DNA from: Cylicocyclus nassatus
Lineage: Eukaryota; Nematoda; Chromadorea; Rhabditida; Strongylidae
Direction of reading: 5' to 3'
DNA length: 64,000 nt
NCBI GenBank assembly: GCA_958299035.1
Contig: CATQJL010000001.1
Location: 1,736,001-1,800,000 of the forward strand
Part shown: positions 2,148-62,571 of the stretch, one piece after another
Layout: every line of letters begins with the position of its first letter
Numbering within the stretch: the first letter of the stretch is position 1
Notes under the pieces: generated by a model
What the model was told of the DNA's origin: nothing
Seen by the model: the letters and a program-made list of their open reading frames with translations, nothing else
The model's database searches: none
Program-made: the position numbers and the translations under genes

Positions 2148-2867
2148 TTAAACAATACAAATCTTCGCTAAATTTGCCACTCGTTATGTAAGTAAAACTA
2201 ATTAGCTCAGTAAAGAAAATCCAGGCTTATATTATGGAGCCATTTTCTACGGTATCATCAATAGAAGAAGGGTCTTACTAGTAGCAGGTACGATAGCGCA
2301 GGTGAGCAAAACTAAGCTTTTTGATTTATTGAATCAGTCAAGTTTCCAGGGCATAGCGACTCTAACGCTGTTTGGTCTTTTCATATATTTCATGGTAGAA
2401 GTCTGTCGCTCGCAAACTCAAATTTTCAACAAATATAACGGTAAGTAAAAATCGCAGCATTGGTCGTCGCTACACAGAACTTGCATTGCTGCATTTCTAA
2501 CTACCCTTTAAACTTTGTTTAATTTACTACGCTGTAAATCCAAATTTTGGGCTTAAGTTTGACCTTCTGTGCCTAAATGTATAATTCGGTTATGGTTCTT
2601 GTCAGTGCAGATCATTTGTTTTTTAACCTCCATTACTTCGCAATTTTGTTCCTTGATTTTTGGTGAAAGAAATTGGATTTTTTTATGATAGCTTTTCATT
2701 AAAGAGATTTTCTGCTTAAGCAAAATCGATCGTCTTAATCAATTTAAATTGTTGTTTCCATTGATACCAAACATTTCTATAAAGACCTGTCAGTAACATT
2801 TTTGCAAACCTTCAACGACGGAAGCTATTCATTAGCCAATCTAGTAACAGCAAAGATCGGGTAAATA
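2148..2867. other. No feature recognised
   Basis: AT-rich sequence without long open frames or obvious repeats. Confidence 0.4.
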
Positions 2868-3601
2868 CAGGGTGTCCCAAAAAATGTATCGAACATTTGA
2901 TCTTTAATAACTTCCTTATATGGGAAGCTTTCGCAGATCTTTGAGTGTCATACGGTAAAGCTGGGTTCAACTTAGATTTACAGTATAGAGCGAATTACCG
3001 ATTTCTCTTAGTCACTGTAGGATTACGGTAGGAATTTTCATAATTTTAAGCTTACGACAGGTCAGAATGCTTCTGAAAAATTCCAAAAAATCGAAGGACG
3101 TTAAACTGAGGTTTTAGGGGATGCTGAATCTAATTACAAAGTTTTCCGCTACCGTACTCTTCATCTTCCTACGGTATGCGCACTGTAACGCTAAATTTTT
3201 TCCTTTTTTTTTTCAAAATTTACTAAATCAACGTTGCAATTAAAAACACGACGTCAAATACCTTCGCGTTAGGCAAAGCCTTACAGTGCGCATACCGTAG
3301 GAAGATGAAGAGTACGGTAGCGAAAACTTTGTAATTAGATTCAGCATCCCCTAAACCCCAGTTTAACGTACTTCGATTTTTTGGAATTTTTTAAAAGCAT
3401 TCTCGCTTGTTGTAAACTTAAAATTAATTAAAAATTTTAACCGTAATCCTACAGCAACTAAGAGAAATCGATGATTCACTCTCTACTGTAAATCTAAGGT
3501 GAACCCAGCTCTACCGTATGACACTCAAAGATCCGCGAAAGCTTCCCATACAGGGAAGTTATCAAAGATCAAACCTTCGATACATTTTTTGGGAAACCCT
3601 G
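2868..3601. mobile_element. Tc1/mariner-type foldback, 734 bp
   Basis: The ends begin CAGGGTGTCCCAAAAAATGT and, inverted, CAGGGTTTCCCAAAAAATGT, and are flanked by TA (2866-2867, 3602-3603). Long arms of roughly 330 bp pair across a short AT-rich centre near 3220. Ends and target match non-autonomous Tc1/mariner elements. A degenerate relative occupies 52010-52690. Confidence 0.8.
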
Positions 3602-20022: not shown

Positions 20023-20601
20023 CTCAGATAATCGCCGGGGGGAAGGCGGTCCGCAAACTCGCGCTTTTCTGCAGGCGGTCAGCAGGGTTTCGGGGCGTGG
20101 CCAAATCTTCAGCGGGCGGTATTTGCGTTTTCTGCAAGCGGGCATCAATACAAAATTTTCTGCAAGCGCTCGTCAAACAATCTCTTTCAGCAAGCGCTGG
20201 CCCAACTTTCAGCAGGCGCTCAGACTCTTTTTACGCAGTTTCGGGCGTACGCCGAGAAAAGATGAGACTCTATGTGGCAGAGGTGCCATCGATGGTTTTA
20301 TTACCCAAGTTCGGGGTACTTTCTTTCAGCGGAAAGTACCTGAGGGCTGTGCGGTCCTTCAAAAAGGACTGTGCGGCTCTCATTAATTTTGCATGTTCTC
20401 GCGGAAAATCCGCGAGAATGCGGCCACTGTGCCGCAACTTATGTATAGAAAAACCGCGATAGATCTTCGAGCGTTCGTCTAAAAATTGGCCAAAATTATT
20501 CGAAATTTCTGCAAGCGGACCACAAAAAATCAGCGAACTATTTTTCCGGTGCCCGCTTGCTCAAAATTCGCATGGCCGCTTGCCCCCGGCGATTATCTGA
20601 G
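20023..20601. mobile_element. CTCAG-ended TIR element carrying an SL RNA gene, copy A
   Basis: The TIRs begin CTCAGATAATCGCCGGGGG on the left and, inverted, CTCAGATAATCGCCGGGGGC on the right. A 2-bp duplication TG flanks it (20021-20022, 20602-20603). The empty site at about 22764-22774 (inverted) reads GCATGCTGTGAAC where this copy reads GCATGCTG-element-TGTGAGC. Subterminal sequence is rich in GCAAGCG/CGCTTGC motifs. The only recognisable cargo is the SL-like RNA gene in its middle. 579 bp; no transposase. Confidence 0.8.
20294..20419 (+). ncRNA. Spliced-leader (SL1-like) RNA gene, copy A
   Basis: SL RNAs donate a 22-nt leader to the 5' ends of mRNAs by trans-splicing. Here the first 22 nt (20294-20315, GGTTTTATTACCCAAGTT...) match nematode SL1 at 19 of 22 positions, with changes at positions 6, 19 and 21. 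A GT donor follows at once (GTACTT). Stem I pairs the donor region GGTACTTTC with GAAAGTACC. Stem II is a 16-bp helix (AGGGCTGTGCGGTCCT with its partner). Next comes AATTTTG, a good Sm-protein site, and stem III is TTCTCGCGGA/TCCGCGAGAA. This order is that of nematode SL RNA. The leader is somewhat decayed. It lies alone in a transposon, not beside 5S rRNA. Confidence 0.75.
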
Positions 20602-29632: not shown

Positions 29633-30712
29633 ACTTTCGCTACATCTGTCTGCTCTCTTCTCAGTCAAATAAAACAGGGCAAAAGTAATTTAACCTCGTC
29701 AGAAAAGCGGTTTACGTGAAGTCCGTAACCTTGCGACTCGAAAGAAATCAACGTTCTGTAAGTGACAAAGGAGGAGAGTTTGCAGTCATCTCAACGGAGC
29801 TTGATAAAGCTATAACGCAAGTCCACTTACAAGATGACACTCTCTACAAATTTTCTTCCATTGATGAGTACAAGAAGCAGTATCGTCGATTAAATAGAAT
29901 ATGGGAAGACGTAGCGTGTTGCGCAGGATTACCAAGACGCACCATCTCGCGACTTAAAAACGATTTACCCATTTGTCCCGTCCTCTATACATTGATTAAA
30001 ACACATAAACCTCCATCTACTGGCCTAACGTCGACCGATCCGCGCGAATTCAGAGTTAGACCTATAATAAGTGGCATAGATGGTCCGACGGACAGGATTT
30101 CATGGTTTTTTAACATAATTCTCTCGCCTTTGCTCAACTACGTTCCATCCCATCTATCTAATACCCAAATGTTCTTTGAGCGCCTGCGGAACACCACTCC
30201 GACCAACGGTAGCGTTGGAGAGTCTTTCGATGTTACGTCTGTACACTAACGTTCCTAACGATGCAGCCATGCAGGCAGTTTTCGAGCTTTTAACACAACA
30301 TCAATTCACTCTTGCCTTGTATGGGTTTGATGTTAAGGGCATAATGACCCTTGTAAACAAATGTTTTCAATGTTCCATTTTTCGATGGTCGGAGCACTAT
30401 TACAAGCAGGTTAGAGGTCTGGCCAAGGGACAGAGAATAGCTGGCTGTATTGGCTGTCGTCTTCATGTCCAAAGTTGAAGCGCCAGTCATGGAACGCAAA
30501 CCTCTTTTGTATTGTAGGTACATAGATGACTGTTTAATAGTATGCCCCACTCAGTGCGAAATGGACACTTGTTTTGATCTTTTGAATCGGCAGTACTCAC
30601 AAATCCAACTCACAAGAGAGAGAGAGACCCAAGGGTGACTGGCTTGCATTCTTAAACGTGCAGGTGAGAATTGCTAATGGGGAATTCGAGACAAGATGGT
30701 ATCGCAAACTCA
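29633..30712 (+). mobile_element. Penelope-like retroelement, truncated
   Basis: Contains most of a PLE reverse transcriptase (next entry). Upstream is interrupted by the TTAA MITE. Downstream, the PLE stops at about 30712, where the 8-kb duplicated segment begins. The C-terminal GIY-YIG part is missing here. Confidence 0.75.
29716..30700 (+). pseudogene. PLE reverse transcriptase with frameshifts
   Basis: Reverse transcriptase of the Penelope class, copying element RNA for insertion. In order and in three frames: VSDKGGEFAVIS near the start; KTHKPP and FRVRPIISGIDGPTDRISWF (fingers); FDVTSVH broken by a shift before TNVPNDAAMQAVFELL (motif A region); GLAKGQRIA (motif B); then, in another frame, YCRYIDDCLIVCP with the catalytic YIDD (motif C); and after a stop, FLNVQVRIANGEFETRWYRK. 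At least three frameshifts or stops break it. Motif order and residues are otherwise well kept, so inactivation may be fairly recent. Confidence 0.75.
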
Positions 30713-30789
30713 GCTATAAGGGTCACCCACCGAGCGCTAGAGTGCAGTCTTCTAAAGATGATGCGACACAAATAACATCTTGTCGGACT

Positions 30790-31026
30790 TCGCAGTACGG
30801 ATATGAGAAAATGTCTCGTCTTCATCTTCATGACCCAGCGGAGTACGTTGAGAAGGCGAAGCATCGATGGGCCGGTCACATTATGAGGAAAACAGACGAC
30901 CGATGGACACCAAGAGCATCAGAGTGGATTCCTCGCGAAGCAAAACGTTCCCGAGGAAGACCACCGACGAGGTGGGCAGACGTGTTCGTGAAACGGATGG
31001 ACCAGCTGGACGCGATTTGTATTTGA
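30790..31026 (+). pseudogene. RTE-type LINE C-terminal fragment (copy 1)
   Basis: The frame reads KHRWAGHIMRKTDDRWTPRA, EWIPREAKRSRGRPPTRWAD and ends VKRMDQLDAICI-stop. This HRWAGHxMR...RGRPPxRW tail is characteristic of the end of RTE-type non-LTR retrotransposon proteins in nematodes. Endonuclease and reverse transcriptase parts are absent (5' truncated), and stops follow. An almost identical copy is at 55305-55506. Confidence 0.65.
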
Positions 31027-35711: not shown

Positions 35712-36300
35712 CTCAGATAACCGTCGGGGGCAGGCGGCCATGCGAATTTTGAGCAAGCGCGCACCGGAAAAATAGTTCGTTGATTTTTTGCGACCCGCTT
35801 GCAGAAATTTGGAAGAAAGTTGGCGAAATTAAAGACGAATGCTTGAAGAACAATCGCGGTTTCTTTATGGATTAGTTGCGGCGCAGTGGCCGCATTCTCG
35901 CGGACTTTCCGCGAGAATATGCAAAAATTTCGAGGGCCGCACGGTCCTTTGTGGAGGACCGCGCAACCCTCAGGTACTTTCCGCTGAGAGAAAGCACCTC
36001 AAACTTGAGTAATTAAACCAACGGTGACACCTCTGCCACACAGAGTCTTACCTGCGCTCGACGTACGCCCGAAAATGCCTACAAAGAGTCCGAGCGCTTG
36101 CTGAAAGTTTGGCCAGCGCTTGCTGAAAGAAATTATTTGCCGAGCGCTTGCAAAAAATGCTGTATTGCTGCCCGGTGGCAGAATATGCAACCGTAAAGGA
36201 AGTGCCGCCCGCTGAAGGTTTGGCCACGCCTCAAAATTCTGCTGACCGCCTGCAGAAAAGGGCGAGTTTGCGGACCGCCTGCCCCCGGCGATTATCTGAG
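35712..36300. mobile_element. CTCAG-ended TIR element carrying an SL RNA gene, copy B
   Basis: The TIRs are CTCAGATAACCGTCGGGGGC on the left and, inverted, CTCAGATAATCGCCGGGGGC on the right (3 mismatches over about 28 bp). Copy 2 of the segmental duplication lacks it: there AGCTTGCTGCATGAG reads through (about 61390). Relative to that site, the left flank has lost GCTG, consistent with a TG target duplication plus a 4-bp deletion. Subterminal GCAAGCGCT motifs repeat near the end upstream of the gene (about 36075-36155). 589 bp; the SL RNA gene is on the minus strand. Confidence 0.85.
35894..36019 (-). ncRNA. Spliced-leader (SL1-like) RNA gene, copy B
   Basis: Minus strand, 36019 to 35998: a 22-nt leader beginning GGTTTAATTACTCAAGTT that matches nematode SL1 at 21 of 22 positions (C to T at position 12). 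The donor follows directly (GTGCTT). Stem I: AGGTGCTTTC with GAAAGTACCT, sequestering the donor. Stem II: 16 bp, AGGGTTGCGCGGTCCT with AGGACCGTGCGGCCCT. Then AATTTTTG, an Sm site, and stem III ATTCTCGCGGA/TCCGCGAGAAT. Differences from copy A keep all stems paired through G-U exchanges. A block upstream of the gene (GTGGCAGAGGTG) is shared with copy A and could be promoter sequence. Length about 126 nt, near the usual SL RNA size. Confidence 0.82.
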
Positions 36301-36744: not shown

Positions 36745-37088
36745 TTAAAGGCACCGTCCACCCAGATTTTCGACTTCCAGGTTTTTATCGTTTCAGGGCC
36801 TTCTCATGTCTCTGATTCCGAATATGAAGTCGAGAATGCGCGAAAACCCCGACAATCCCCGTTCCGGAGAACCACAGGCTGGCTTTCCAGAACGGTGATT
36901 GGATGGGTGCGCACAAATGAGCGGGCATGGATGGGAGTCCTCGTGCATTTTCACTAATCCGGAGCGATTTTCTCGCTTCCGAAGCTTTGTTTTGCGTCGC
37001 GACTTGGGCAGTGGATTGATAGAGGGCCCTACTAATATATGCTGCCAGAAGCTCAACACCCTCAACTTAGGGTGGACGGTGCCTTTAA
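36745..37088. mobile_element. TTAA-flanked 344-bp MITE (family 3), copy 1
   Basis: TTAA at both ends; both termini read AGGCACCGTCCACCC going inward. Other copies: 43546-43889 (inverted) and 61843-62186. Confidence 0.8.
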
Positions 37089-37473
37089 ACGCCACTCCGC
37101 AAAACAGGGAAAACCTCAGCTTGCATGGCGATGCTCTAGCATCCACTGCTCTCAATCATCAAGATTAGAACATTCATAAGATATGCGGACAAAAAAGAAT
37201 ACAAATATCTGAAACAGCGCAATATAACGCGCCCTTTTCAATTCCCCCCACTTCCCAGCGGAGTTGTGCATACGGGTTTTAGAGTGACAGCTGCTCGAGT
37301 TTTTAGATATTTTAAGTTTTTATTAGGTTATTGTAAAAATAATGCCAGTTTTTCCGGCCTGTTTTTGAACAACTTTTTTCCATCACACTTGTTTTCGATA
37401 GGGTTTTTGCATATCATTGGAAAGCTCTCTTTGTGTACTTCCTAATAGTGGGAAATTAGGCGGGGGGCGGGCG

Positions 37474-43418: not shown

Positions 43419-43450
43419 CTCAGATAATCGCCGGGGGCAGGCGGTCCGCA
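43419..43450. mobile_element. Remnant end of the SL-carrying element
   Basis: CTCAGATAATCGCCGGGGGC plus AGGCGGTCCGCA, identical to the terminal 32 bp of SL element copy B (right end), then a switch at GTCCGCA into an inverted copy of 37.17 kb. GTCCGCA is present in both parents, so the junction formed at a 7-bp microhomology. Confidence 0.75.
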
Positions 43451-44148
43451 TATCTTATGAATGTTCTAATCTTGATGATTGAGAGCAGTGGATGCTAGAG
43501 CATCGCCATGCAAGCTGAGGTTTTCCCTGTTTTGCGGAGTGGCGTTTAAAGGCACCGTCCACCCTAAGTTGAGGGTGTGAGCTTCTGGCAGCATATATTA
43601 GTAGGGCCCTCTATCAATCCACTGCCCAAGTCGCGACGCAAAACAAAGCTTCGGAAGCGAGAAAATCGCTCCGGATTAGTGAAAATGCACGAGGACTCCC
43701 ATCCATGCCCGCTCATTTGTGCGCACCCATCCAATCACCGTTCTGGAAAGCCAGCCTGTGGTTCTCCGGAACGGGGATTGTCGGGGTTTTTCGCGCATTC
43801 TCGACTTCATATTCGGAATCAGAGACATGAGAAGGCCCTGAAACGATAAAAACCTGGAAGTCGAAAATCTGGGTGGACGGTGCCTTTAAGAATAACGATA
43901 GCCGTGTCAGTCGCGAACTGCCAGGTGCTCTAGTGCGCAATCAGCTCACCCTCATTCTTTCAATAAGCAAAAGGGAATTCAAATTTCATGTGTTTTCACT
44001 GAATTTCCTCCTTTTCTGATCATCATAAAGGCTTACATATTCCACATGCTAGAAAAAGCTCAAAGGATTACCTTGCTTTTTCACGGCGATGTAACTGCTG
44101 GTTATTTCCGTTCGAAGAACTAACAGGAAGGATTAACGCAAGGATAAG
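43443..44148 (-). repeat. Inverted copy of 36486-37178
   Basis: Reads as the reverse complement of the segment that contains family-3 MITE copy 1 and its flanks, ending at AGGATAAG immediately before the N gap. Nearly identical to its source. Confidence 0.85.
43546..43889. mobile_element. TTAA-flanked 344-bp MITE (family 3), inverted copy
   Basis: Same ends (TTTAAAGGCACCGTCCACCC) as 36745-37088 in opposite orientation, carried along by the inverted duplication. Confidence 0.8.
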
Positions 44149-49179: not shown

Positions 49180-49660
49180 TCAAAAGAGGTGACCCAGGTA
49201 AGGTGCGAGTTCACGAGTGATAGAGAGGCACTCCTCCTTGCGGTTCATTTGTGGACTTTTTGGGTGAATCCAAAAGGCTTCCATACATTTGCGAGCTGAT
49301 GTTTGGGATTCATGCGCTAAGATCTTCACTGAAACTTCAAAGTTTTCTCCAGCGTGCTTCAGCAGCCTGTGAGTGCCTAAAGGTGTGGTCGTGCGTGATC
49401 TATCCCTGCCGTCTAAATGCTCCTTAATGCGGACGCATAAAGGGCGCGCCGTTTCGCCGATATACGTGTCACCACAGCCCGCGCAGGTGATAAGGTAGAT
49501 GACCCCTGACGTCATGCAGTCCCCGCCCCTGCCCGCAGGAGGCGTTGTGCAGGTGCGATCGTAGATGCGACTGCGGACCAAAATACCTTTTAGGTTATTT
49601 GGGGGTATCTCCACCATCGCAACAGAGTTTTTTAACCAGCATCTCCTCAGACACTGCCTT
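49180..49660 (-). pseudogene. PLE C-terminal domain with GIY-YIG (left arm)
   Basis: The minus-strand frame from the palindrome centre reads SVAMVEIPPNNLKGILVRSR and YDRTCTTPPAGRGGDCMTSG, then VIYLITCAGCGDTYIGETAR and VRIKEHLDG, ending at 49180. GIY-YIG is the endonuclease that PLEs use to nick target DNA; the VIYLIT and TYIGE core and downstream Arg/Glu are kept. The usual Cys pair between CTTP and GDC is missing. The frame stays open past the centre into antisense of the other arm, so no true start exists; it is a 5'-truncated insertion. Confidence 0.75.
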
Positions 49661-50087
49661 AAGGCAGTGTCTGAGGAGATGCGGGTTAAAAAACTCTGTT
49701 GCGATGGTGGAGATACCCCCAAATAACCTAAAAGGTATTTTGGTCCGCAGTCGCATCTACGATCGCACCTGCACAACGCCTCCAGCGCGGGCTGTGGTGA
49801 CACGTATATCGGCGAAACGGCGCGCCCTCTATGCGTCCGCATTAAGGAGCATTTAGACGGCAGGGATAGATCACGCACGACCACACCTTTAGGCACTCAC
49901 AGGCTGCTGAAGCACGCTGGAGAAAACTTTGAAGTTTCAGTGAAGATCTTAGCGCATGAATCCCAAACATCAGCTCGCAAATGTATGGAAGCCTTTTGGA
50001 TTCACGCAAAAAGTCCACAAATGAACCGCAAGGAGGAGTGCCTCTCTATCACTCGTGAACTCGCACCTTACCTGGGTCACCTCTTTT
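49661..50087 (+). pseudogene. PLE C-terminal domain, deleted (right arm)
   Basis: Plus-strand counterpart of the left arm. It reads the same up to YDRTCTTPPA, then a deletion of about 52 bp removes the first half of the GIY-YIG motif (VIYLIT) and shifts the frame. Downstream sequence (GDTYIGETARPL, then EHLDG) survives in another frame and ends at 50087. Confidence 0.7.
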
Positions 50088-50292
50088 GACTCACTGTAGG
50101 CATATACATAGCGTGGCATACATGGCCATTCTAGCGCTCGCTCAGGCACTTGTATGCTATCGGCATTTTCAAAAAGGTAAGTGTTTGGTTTGGCAGTCTA
50201 GTCAGTGAACAGGCAGAGTCCTGGAACTTTGCTTGTGGAGCTGCAGAACGTTTGGTCGGATAGGTTGCAGATCGTTTTGCTCATTTCAGGCT

Positions 50293-54543: not shown

Positions 54544-55173
54544 CTCAGACAATTGCATCGGAAAGTTCGCGGTTTCAAAGCGTGCTACATGGCGCGCCGC
54601 GGCCCTTAAAATTTCAGCCGCGCACGCCGCGGCCCATGTATATTTTACCGGGAACGCCGCGGCCAAAGTTAAAATTGGAAAGAGATTATCGGGAGAGTCG
54701 CGGCCCAATCACCTCACTCGGCGTGCCGCGGGCCTTATCAAAGGCCGCAATTCTTACACGCTGTAGGTTAGAGCGCAACCCGCATGAGGTACGCCGCAGC
54801 GATGGGGCTACCCTAAATGTTTGTGAGGCTGGTAATCGCTTCTCGGATTTGACGCTGTGTGACAGTTGAGTTCATATGCTTGCAAGATAAACTTCAGCAG
54901 TCGGATGAGTGTTATCGACGACACTAGATGATGTCGAGAGATGAGCTAACAAGTTGCTCAATTTGCACTCAGTCGTTGTCATGAAAGACAGGCTAAAAGT
55001 TTTTTCACTCTTCCTAGGCCTCACAAGCATGCTAATCGGGTCAACATCGGGCGCTTACAGGATGCGCCGCGGTCACTTATTGGGTCCAATATCGGTTTAT
55101 ACCGGGCAGCTCGCGGCGTGGATGATTGGTAGCCGAGCAAGCACCCGCGAACTTCCCGATGCAATTGTCTGAG
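54544..55173. mobile_element. CTCAG-ended TIR element, third family, 630 bp
   Basis: 29-bp TIRs begin CTCAGACAATTGCATCGG in both directions (one mismatch). A 2-bp duplication CT flanks it (54542-54543, 55174-55175). Just inside the left end, a GCCGCGGCC motif recurs about five times at 27-43-bp intervals (54594-54735). The architecture equals that of the SL-carrying and plexin-carrying elements, but no cargo was recognised. Confidence 0.75.
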
Positions 55174-55304
55174 CTGTTACGCAGCTTAGACTTAGGCTTA
55201 CACCGCAGCCACCTTGAAAGCTATAAGGGTCACCCACCGAGCGCTAGTGCGACACAAATAACATCTTGTCGGACTTCGCAGTACGGATATGAGAAAATGT
55301 CTCG

Positions 55305-55506
55305 TCTTCATGACCCAGCGGAGTACGTTGAGAAGGCGAAGCATCGATGGGCCAGTCACATTATGAGGAAAACATACGACCGATGGACATCAAGAGCATC
55401 AGAGTGGATTCCTCGCGAAGCAAAACGTTCCCGAGGAAGACCACCGACGAGGTGGGCAGACGTGTTCGTGAAACGGATGGACCAGCTGGATGCGATTTGT
55501 ATTTGA
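55305..55506 (+). pseudogene. RTE-type LINE C-terminal fragment (copy 2)
   Basis: Reads KHRWASHIMRKTYDRWTSRA and EWIPREAKRSRGRPPTRWAD to the same stop as 30790-31026, with Gly to Ser in the otherwise constant HRWAGH motif. A short in-frame deletion lies upstream. Confidence 0.65.
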
Positions 55507-61405: not shown

Positions 61406-61842
61406 TCTGTCCTTTTCGCAGTTTCAAGTCCAAAATACTAAAACTCTTTTGGAATAAACGTTTTCGACAACTTTTCTTCGGATAAAGCACCTTTTTGGCT
61501 ATTAAAGGAATACTAAGCCTTGCAAAAACACTATTAAAAAACCCAAACTCAAAAATCCTACACGTCTCAGCATTTTTCCCTTATCCTTGCGTTATATTAT
61601 CCTTCCTGTTAGTTCTTCGAACGGAAATAACCAGCAGTTACATCGCCGCGAAAAAGAAGGTATTCCTTTGAGCTTTTTCTAGCATGTGGAATATGTAAGC
61701 CATTATGAATGATCAGAAAAGGAGGAAATTCAGTGAAAACACATGAAATTTGAATTCCCTTTTGCTTATTGAAAGAATGAGGGTGAGCTGATTGCGCACT
61801 AGAGCACCTGGCAGTTCGCGACTGACAGGGCTATCGTTATTC

Positions 61843-62186
61843 TTAAAGGCACCGTCCACCCAGATTTTCGACTTCCAGGTTTTTGTCGTTTCAGGGTATT
61901 CTCATGTCCCTGATTCCGAATATAAAGTCGAGAATGCGCGAAAACCCCGACAATCCCCGTTCCGGGGAACCACAGGCTGGCTTTCCAAAACGGTGATTGG
62001 ATGGGTGCGCACAAATAAGCGGGCATGGATGGGAGTCCTCGTGCATTTTCACTAATCCGGAGCGATTTTCTCGCTTCCGAAGCTGTGTTTTGCGTCGCGA
62101 CTTGGGCAGTGGATTGATAGAGGGCCCTACTAATATATGCTGCCAAAAGCTCAACACCCTCAACTTAGGGTGGACGGTGCCTTCAA
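61843..62186. mobile_element. TTAA-flanked 344-bp MITE (family 3), copy 2
   Basis: Counterpart of 36745-37088, with the right-hand TTAA mutated to TCAA. Confidence 0.8.
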
Positions 62187-62571
62187 ACGCCACTCCGCAA
62201 AACAGGGAAAACCTCAGCTTGCATGGCGATGTTCTAGAATCCACTGCTCTCAATCATCAAGATAAGAACATTCATAAGATATACGGACAAAAAAGAATAC
62301 AAACATCTGAAACAGCGCAATATAACGCGCCCTTTTCAATTCCCTCCACTTCCCAGCGGAGTTGTGCATACGGGTTTTAGAGTGACAGCTGCTCGAGTTT
62401 TTAGATATTTTAAGTTTTTATTAGGTTATTGTAAAAATAATGCTAGTTTTTCCGGCCTGTTTTTGAACAACTTTTTTCCATCAAACTTGTTTTCGATAGG
62501 GTTTTTGCATATCATTGGAAAGCTCTCTTTGTGTACTTCCTAATAGTGGGAAATTAGGCGGAGGCGGGCGT

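Follow-up and report, generated by a model that had tools for sequence, protein, structure and literature searches.

A short inverted-repeat transposon of Cylicocyclus nassatus with a putative SL1-type spliced-leader RNA gene as its cargo

Introduction

Can a spliced-leader (SL) RNA gene be multiplied as the cargo of a DNA transposon? SL RNA genes are known mainly from clusters, and in many nematodes they stand in a 5S-linked arrangement. The question is raised by a 64,000-nucleotide stretch of contig CATQJL010000001.1 of the strongylid nematode Cylicocyclus nassatus (C1:1736001-1800000, here called the window), in an assembly of 514,686,895 bases and 369 contigs. A sequence-only reading of the window described two elements with terminal inverted repeats (TIRs), each holding an SL1-like RNA. 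We followed up this reading by genome searches, RNA folding, promoter comparison and alignment of copies.

Results

Two copies of a TIR element in the window

Both elements were found where they had been described. Copy 1, of subfamily k1, was delimited by its TIRs and by genome search at positions 35712..36300 of the window and carries the SL RNA on the minus strand; copy 2, of subfamily k2, occupies positions 20023..20601 with the SL RNA on the plus strand. The size of the element is 580-590 bp in these two copies. The TIR pair of copy 1 (35712..35737 and 36275..36300) is 26 nt long with 92% agreement, that of copy 2 (20023-20045 and 20579-20601) 23 nt long with 96%, and the TIR sequence of the element is CTCAGATAATCGCCGGGG. 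The two copies lie in opposite orientation and are 84% identical over their whole length, and the similarity ends at the TIRs. Copy 2 is flanked by an exact 2-bp target duplication (TG/TG), while copy 1, flanked by TT and TG, is without one. The earlier reading of a second insertion of this element, with the same RNA, holds.

The same TIR family also has a solo end of 32 bp at 43419..43450; no second end for it was found in the window. Positions 36793-37155, 43540-43900 and 61799-62253 apparently hold one dispersed repeat (GGCACCGTCCACCC...), as judged by eye, a copy of which adjoins this solo end. Also by eye, frames at 29689-31026, 49180-50089 and 55126-55506 resemble remnants of Penelope-type (GIY-YIG) and non-LTR reverse transcriptases.

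The element is a transposon

Genome search with copy 1 gave 3405 first-look candidates, of which 40 were scored, and the top 40 of 59 rows were 97-100% identical; with copy 2 there were 3477 candidates, 40 of them scored, and the top 40 of 58 rows were 98-100% identical. Copies taken from such best-match searches are the better-kept ones. The places lie dispersed over six large contigs with distinct flanks and fall into three diverged subfamilies. The third, k3, was found at 39 further places, 89-93% identical to the query copy in locus L007. Median divergence from the consensus was 1.2% for k1 (31 copies) and 0.3% for k2 (18 copies), both picked by best match; the sampled k1 and k2 copies are young and k3 is older.

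Sharing of TIRs and target duplications by other copies had been set beforehand as a test. Matches had to span at least 540-560 bases of the element to be counted. Of these, 27 of the 36 full-length copies in loci L001-L030 and 14 of the 16 full-length k2 copies were flanked by exact 2-bp duplications, which varied in sequence, where 1 in 16 would be expected (binomial p below 1e-14 for each set). The element is therefore a transposon. TIRs, target duplications and many short dispersed copies, the characters by which a MITE is recognised, were all found. Target duplications of 2 bp are made by the ISL2EU and Mirage/CMC superfamilies; a strict TA target is disfavoured here because the duplications vary in sequence.

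Anatomy of the SL1-like RNA

As reference for the leader we used the 22-mer of nematode SL1; it had 582 exact matches in the genome, and its reversed control had none. The leader of copy 1 (GGTTTAATTACTCAAGTTTGAG; 35998..36019, minus strand) aligned to SL1 with one mismatch, C12 to T, so that the 21 of 22 identities read earlier hold. The leader of copy 2 (GGTTTTATTACCCAAGTTCGGG; 20294-20315, plus strand) has three mismatches (19/22) and differs at one base from the k2 consensus, which has 20/22 identities with the changes A6 to T and A21 to G. The k1 and k3 consensus leaders share C12 to T (T-type leader) and are both 21/22 identical to SL1. A chance origin of the leader was rejected, the expected number of leaders with at most one mismatch in such an element being about 4e-9.

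A GT, the putative 5' splice site, follows directly after the leader in copy 1 (35996..35997, minus strand) and copy 2 (20316..20317, plus strand), and it is kept in 34/34 k1, 23/23 k2 and 35/36 k3 copies. Folding of both copies confirmed that this site is held in stem I, at whose foot it stands (35972..35999, minus strand, in copy 1; 20314..20341, plus strand, in copy 2). Stem II (35932..35971, minus strand; 20342..20381, plus strand) had been given as 16 bp, a figure to be corrected to 17 pairs including G.U. The terminal stem III (35894..35918, minus strand; 20395..20419, plus strand) has the 11 pairs that had been read, with a loop of 3. The stems of 11, 17 and 11 pairs are all internal to the element.

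Between stems II and III lies an Sm-like site, AATTTTTG at 35922..35929 (minus strand) in copy 1, unpaired except for its last base, and AATTTTG at 20385..20391 (plus strand) in copy 2, unpaired except for its last bases. The earlier description of this site as Sm-type holds in part: A-U4/5-G is present in 34/34 k1, 23/23 k2 and 28/36 k3 copies, and the base that follows is C, not a purine.

In the folds of both copies the leader is free and the Sm-like site unpaired. Folding z-scores were -8.9 and -9.1 on the SL strand of copies 1 and 2, against -6.3 and -5.3 on the other strand. For the k1, k2 and k3 consensus sequences, the SL strand folded at about -68 kcal/mol and the opposite strand at -53 to -56 kcal/mol; the stems of the SL strand contain many G.U pairs. 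The predicted RNA, from the leader to stem III, is about 125-126 nt long.

Copy number and integrity of the cargo

The copy count over the whole assembly that had been proposed as a check was made with short patterns, each of which counts that motif alone with no whole element implied; the places known individually are the first 100 per pattern. The exact T-type leader occurs at 1,105 places in the genome, the T-type leader followed by GTAC[CT]TTC at 913, the k2 leader with GTACTTTC at 268, and TTTTG of the Sm-like site with stem III at 923; all four reversed controls gave 0. The exact TIR and leader patterns were absent from viral contigs, and the exact leader pattern from bacterial and archaeal contigs. 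With TIRs, target duplications and many hundreds of copies, a unit with the SL RNA gene parts in their proper order has been multiplied as transposon cargo, as had been claimed.

We extracted 100 cores, of which 93 entered the subfamily counts and 7 fell below the identity cuts. Consensus leader, GT and Sm-like site were all intact in 29/34 k1, 22/23 k2 and 16/36 k3 cores, fractions that are biased upwards because the cores are best-match copies. A further 30 cores were viewed and kept outside all counts; a few of these had damaged leaders.

A promoter-like site at -47

A PSE-like core starts at -47 of the leader in both window copies, GTACGTC at 36060..36066 (minus strand) in copy 1 and GTACGCC at 20247..20253 (plus strand) in copy 2. 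Most of the U2 genes seen have a common block with the core GTMCGAC at -46, and most of the U1 genes seen have RTACG in common at -44. The core by which the promoters were aligned was noticed on visual inspection of U2, host SL1 and the element, ahead of the building of a matrix. Upstream regions were fetched for 18 of 46 U2 matches and 16 of 25 U1 matches; two of these 34 (L119 and L175) were without the core and were excluded. The matrix was made of the 32 remaining U1/U2 promoters of this genome only, with an effective number of 9.4.

The top site of this matrix was at -47 in k1, k2 and k3 and at -46 in host SL1. Over both strands of the consensus, the -47 site ranked 1 of 1140 in k1 and 1 of 1118 in k2; in k3 it ranked 1 of 41 in the 60 upstream bases. 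A candidate snRNA-type proximal promoter element, looked for at about -46, was thus found at -47, where the matrix scored higher than anywhere else in the element. The best-of-5-positions p was 0.0005 for k1, 0.0025 for k2, 0.013 for k3 and 0.011 for host SL1. No site below p 0.05 was found with the same matrix at 12 leaders of LTR-type loci (hand-picked from 27 fetched) or at one leader of an 82-bp repeat type, both described below. An earlier matrix of U2 alone placed the k1 site as expected (p = 0.0035) and did not place the k2 and k3 sites at the expected position. Since the subfamilies share ancestry, the -47 site is one observation, not three. The promoter match is the strongest test of an SL RNA gene versus a leader alone.

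Pairing within and between subfamilies

The consensus sequences are separated by 9 pair changes, located at 8 pairs, and 7 of these changes retain a standard pair. They include a double change in stem I, where k3 has C-G and both k1 and k2 have U-A; the exceptions are two foot pairs of stem II, broken in k3. Within subfamilies, distinct variants at Watson-Crick pairs kept the pairing in 30 cases and broke it in 50, and counted per copy the Watson-Crick stem pairs had changed to 54 G.U, 50 A.C, 30 transversions and 2 others. The contrast of changes within and between subfamilies gave p = 0.031-0.036 at Watson-Crick pairs, p = 0.085-0.096 with G.U pairs included and p = 0.12 for transitions alone. 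It is fragile, because it weakens when pair changes are recounted per distinct variant and G.U pairs are included.

Non-CpG change per site in the leader versus the upstream flank was 0.038/0.032 in k3, 0.008/0.015 in k1 and 0.002/0.001 in k2. Stem changes near-indifferent to pairing, together with a leader not clearly slower than the flank, indicate that single copies drift. A comparison of k1 with k2 shows differences at 15/126 sites of the SL RNA and at 27/135 sites of its two immediate flanks (p = 0.09).

Over the 81 distinct rows of the 100 cores, 94.1% of the cells of the stems were paired, against 36-50% when slid. A second alignment (A2) held 41 sequences, namely 40 of 61 cores and window copy 2, the other 21 having been dropped by hand as mostly near-identical; two of those dropped (L025 and L013) were diverged copies with stem deletions, so that the result of A2 leans towards structure. 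In A2, 91.6% of cells were paired, and the covariation score was 0.089 versus 0.080 in shuffles, equalled by 2 of 500. Pairs changed on both sides numbered 4, which was equalled by 240 of 500 shuffles. When the classical leader stem replaced stem I, the score was equalled by 105 of 500 shuffles; the classical leader/splice-site stem itself had 96.8% of cells paired and showed no covariation above shuffles. Covariation in the SL RNA stems is modest. The data suggest that structure was retained between subfamilies and give weak evidence that the transposon lineages that spread preserved the RNA structure.

Host SL1 genes and Rfam scores

Among the first 100 listed of the 582 exact SL1 places there were tandem arrays with a spacing of about 680 bp. 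The host unit, of about 680 bp, has a normal SL1 RNA body (L058-L060 and L136), and both this body and its flanks are unrelated to the transposon. That the element might simply be the spacer of a tandem SL array, which the sequence-only reading had named as fatal to its view, was rejected: the array unit is 680 bp with another body and other flanks, and the element is dispersed with TIRs of its own. In the array of L060 no 5S rRNA was detected at the Rfam cut-off, which sets it apart from the 5S-linked arrangement of many nematodes. Past the leader, the similarity of k1 to host SL1 runs from the Sm site into stem III (AAAATTTTGGATA-TCTC) and was equalled by 40 of 2000 shuffles; the matches of k3 and k2, equalled by 268 and 625 of 2000, do not stand out. 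The match to host SL1 outside the leader is thus weak.

With the Rfam SL1 model (RF00198), copy 1 scored 16.1 bits, below the cut-off of 75, and copy 2 was not listed. At gathering thresholds Rfam gave nothing in the window, nor in L060, L061, L002 or L009. A covariance score as SL RNA had been expected of the element, and in this it fell short. The arrayed SL1 gene of the host, at 39.9 bits, is itself below 75, so the failure of the element says little; as evidence against an SL RNA it was set aside.

SL1 leaders in other mobile elements, a sister element and candidate transposases

We also fetched 27 dispersed exact SL1 leaders (L031-L057). GT follows straight after the leader in 20 of them, and CG[TC]GGC is found within 160 bases in 18. 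Two gag-like frames near such leaders were tested and both matched PF03564, presumably a domain of BEL/Pao elements. Judged from these features, the loci are probably LTR retrotransposons with SL1 at the start of the transcript. In L061 (G000:C1:31163500-31168500), a repeat unit of about 82 bp forms inverted arrays at 1591-1900 and 2805-3230. The unit has TGACGTCA sites before an SL1 leader, which is exact in most copies of the unit, and it has GTAC; inspection by eye showed no Sm-like site in it. It appears to be a further mobile element with the SL1 leader in use at a promoter. As the LTR-type loci and the 82-bp repeat also carry SL1, the leader has entered mobile elements in several ways.

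A sister element of 319 bp (L005:2213-2531 and L014:3167-3485) has the same TIRs and related arms, is nearly palindromic and contains no SL RNA; with the SL RNA part it shares short matches only. Both copies seen have 2-bp duplications, so the SL RNA is apparently unneeded for movement. PF13359 (DDE_Tnp_4) had 149 matches in the genome. At 8 of these loci, no two facing ends of the element TIR were found, only single weak matches, and no autonomous version with the leader as an exon.

Discussion

The element is best explained, with moderate confidence, as a MITE-like transposon that captured an SL1-type SL RNA gene and carries it as an SL donor. In this explanation, a short non-autonomous DNA transposon, mobilised through its ends by a transposase from elsewhere, would have taken up a gene with the order PSE-like element at -47, 22-nt leader, stem-held 5' splice site, stem II, Sm-like site and stem III. 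RNA polymerase II would transcribe this inner gene into an RNA of about 125 nt, which would presumably be capped, be bound by Sm proteins and donate its leader, possibly to the benefit of transposon or host. Messenger RNAs would then receive the T-type leader (from k1 and k3) or a k2-type leader. We are quite confident that an SL RNA gene was captured as the cargo, as opposed to a resemblance due to chance or to a cis exon, and we think it somewhat more likely than not that some copies at least function in trans-splicing. The proposal that a transposon carries an SL RNA gene has gained support from the TIRs, the duplications, the promoter-like site at -47 and the suggestive keeping of structure between subfamilies. 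The SL1-type assignment is provisional because the Rfam score lies below the cut-off, as does that of the host gene, the Sm-like site is without its last purine and activity is a prediction.

The gene might have been captured once and been nonfunctional ever since, copied as a passenger between the ends. Such a passenger fits the leader's rate of change within subfamilies, which is not clearly below that of the flank, the duplications of the 319-bp sisters that lack the gene, and the imperfect Sm-like site. We nevertheless regard it as unlikely: the promoter-like site, leader, GT, stems and Sm-like site are retained at equal spacing in the three subfamilies, k1 and k2 differ less in the SL RNA than in the flanks (at the p of 0.09 given above), and pair changes between consensus sequences tend to preserve pairing. 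The presence of exact SL1 in LTR-type loci, mostly with GT behind it, and in the 82-bp repeat shows that elements of this genome acquire the leader outside SL RNA genes, and our leader could likewise be the first exon of a transposon transcript that mimics a trans-spliced 5' end, the stems being incidental. Against such a cis exon, the present element lines up a promoter site and a leader with an Sm-like site and stem III in the order of an SL RNA gene. None of the 13 leaders tested from other mobile elements has a PSE-like site, the 82-bp unit has no Sm-like site to the eye, and the 8 transposase loci hold no autonomous version with such an exon; we think this origin improbable.

Hairpins can also serve transposition of the DNA itself, as in foldback elements, with the RNA reading an accident. 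The sister element does fold on itself almost end to end, and the arms of the present element are inverted repeats. The three stems, though, are internal and lie in the part with which the sister shares only short matches, the SL strand is favoured by 12-16 kcal/mol, and a 21/22 leader, its GT and the -47 site would be left unexplained, so that we give this idea very little credence. Still less do we believe in an artefact of assembly or a mis-assembled SL-array spacer, given an element dispersed over six large contigs with distinct flanks, target duplications and three diverged subfamilies, and an array unit unrelated to it.

A captured SL RNA gene as cargo, the reading we prefer, places the element between several known systems. 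On paper it combines the workings of a nematode SL1 RNA gene with the mobility of a MITE, a provisional placement. With the SL1 RNA genes in tandem arrays (680-bp units here) it shares the leader (21/22), GT, stems, an Sm-like site and a PSE-like site at -46/-47; it differs in being dispersed by transposition, in its length of about 126 nt, in its longer stems and leader variants, and in copies that drift singly. With MITEs and foldback elements it has in common the short length, TIRs, target duplications and many copies, but it harbours a gene for a small RNA, complete with a promoter-like element. LTR retrotransposons with SL1 in the LTR, of which Tas of Ascaris is one, are likewise mobile elements bearing the leader; there the leader probably marks the start of the transcript, and the 12 tested here are without a PSE-like site. 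SINEs, derived from tRNA, 7SL or snRNA genes, are also small-RNA genes multiplying as mobile elements. They move by reverse transcription of their RNA, whereas here the RNA is the internal cargo of a TIR element.

A survey of flatworm SL RNAs reports 597 leader-like loci associated with mobile elements, mainly LTR and LINE (PMC12582326). These are comparable to the present case in joining leader-like loci to mobile elements and differ from it in that they held partial leaders only and were discarded; the survey excluded loci for their proximity to mobile elements and applied a rescue step later (PMC12582326). Transposon-borne SL genes could therefore escape annotation, since at least one published pipeline excludes candidates near mobile elements, with that later rescue (PMC12582326). 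Another paper speculates that SL RNAs may retain an ability to transpose (PMC4233971). Topic searches of open-licence PMC papers, among them PMC12582326, PMC4233971, PMC8570151, PMC3229502 and PMC3169594, turned up no DNA transposon that carries an SL RNA gene.

The transposon copies possibly outnumber the arrayed SL1 genes of the host, whose 582 exact leaders include copies in mobile elements. We tentatively suggest, while thinking it rather doubtful, that the transposon-borne genes are active, with more than 1000 dispersed copies of intact leader and donor site supplying a variant share of the leader pool and spreading lineages keeping a working SL RNA. The variant leaders (C12 to T; A6 to T with A21 to G) are distinguishable in ordinary RNA-seq. 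If the explanation is true, a DNA transposon with an SL RNA gene would be a new route by which the trans-splicing leader is multiplied, dispersed and altered, and would offer a model for the origin of new leaders. If the copies are active, transposition would multiply and diversify a core component of RNA processing.
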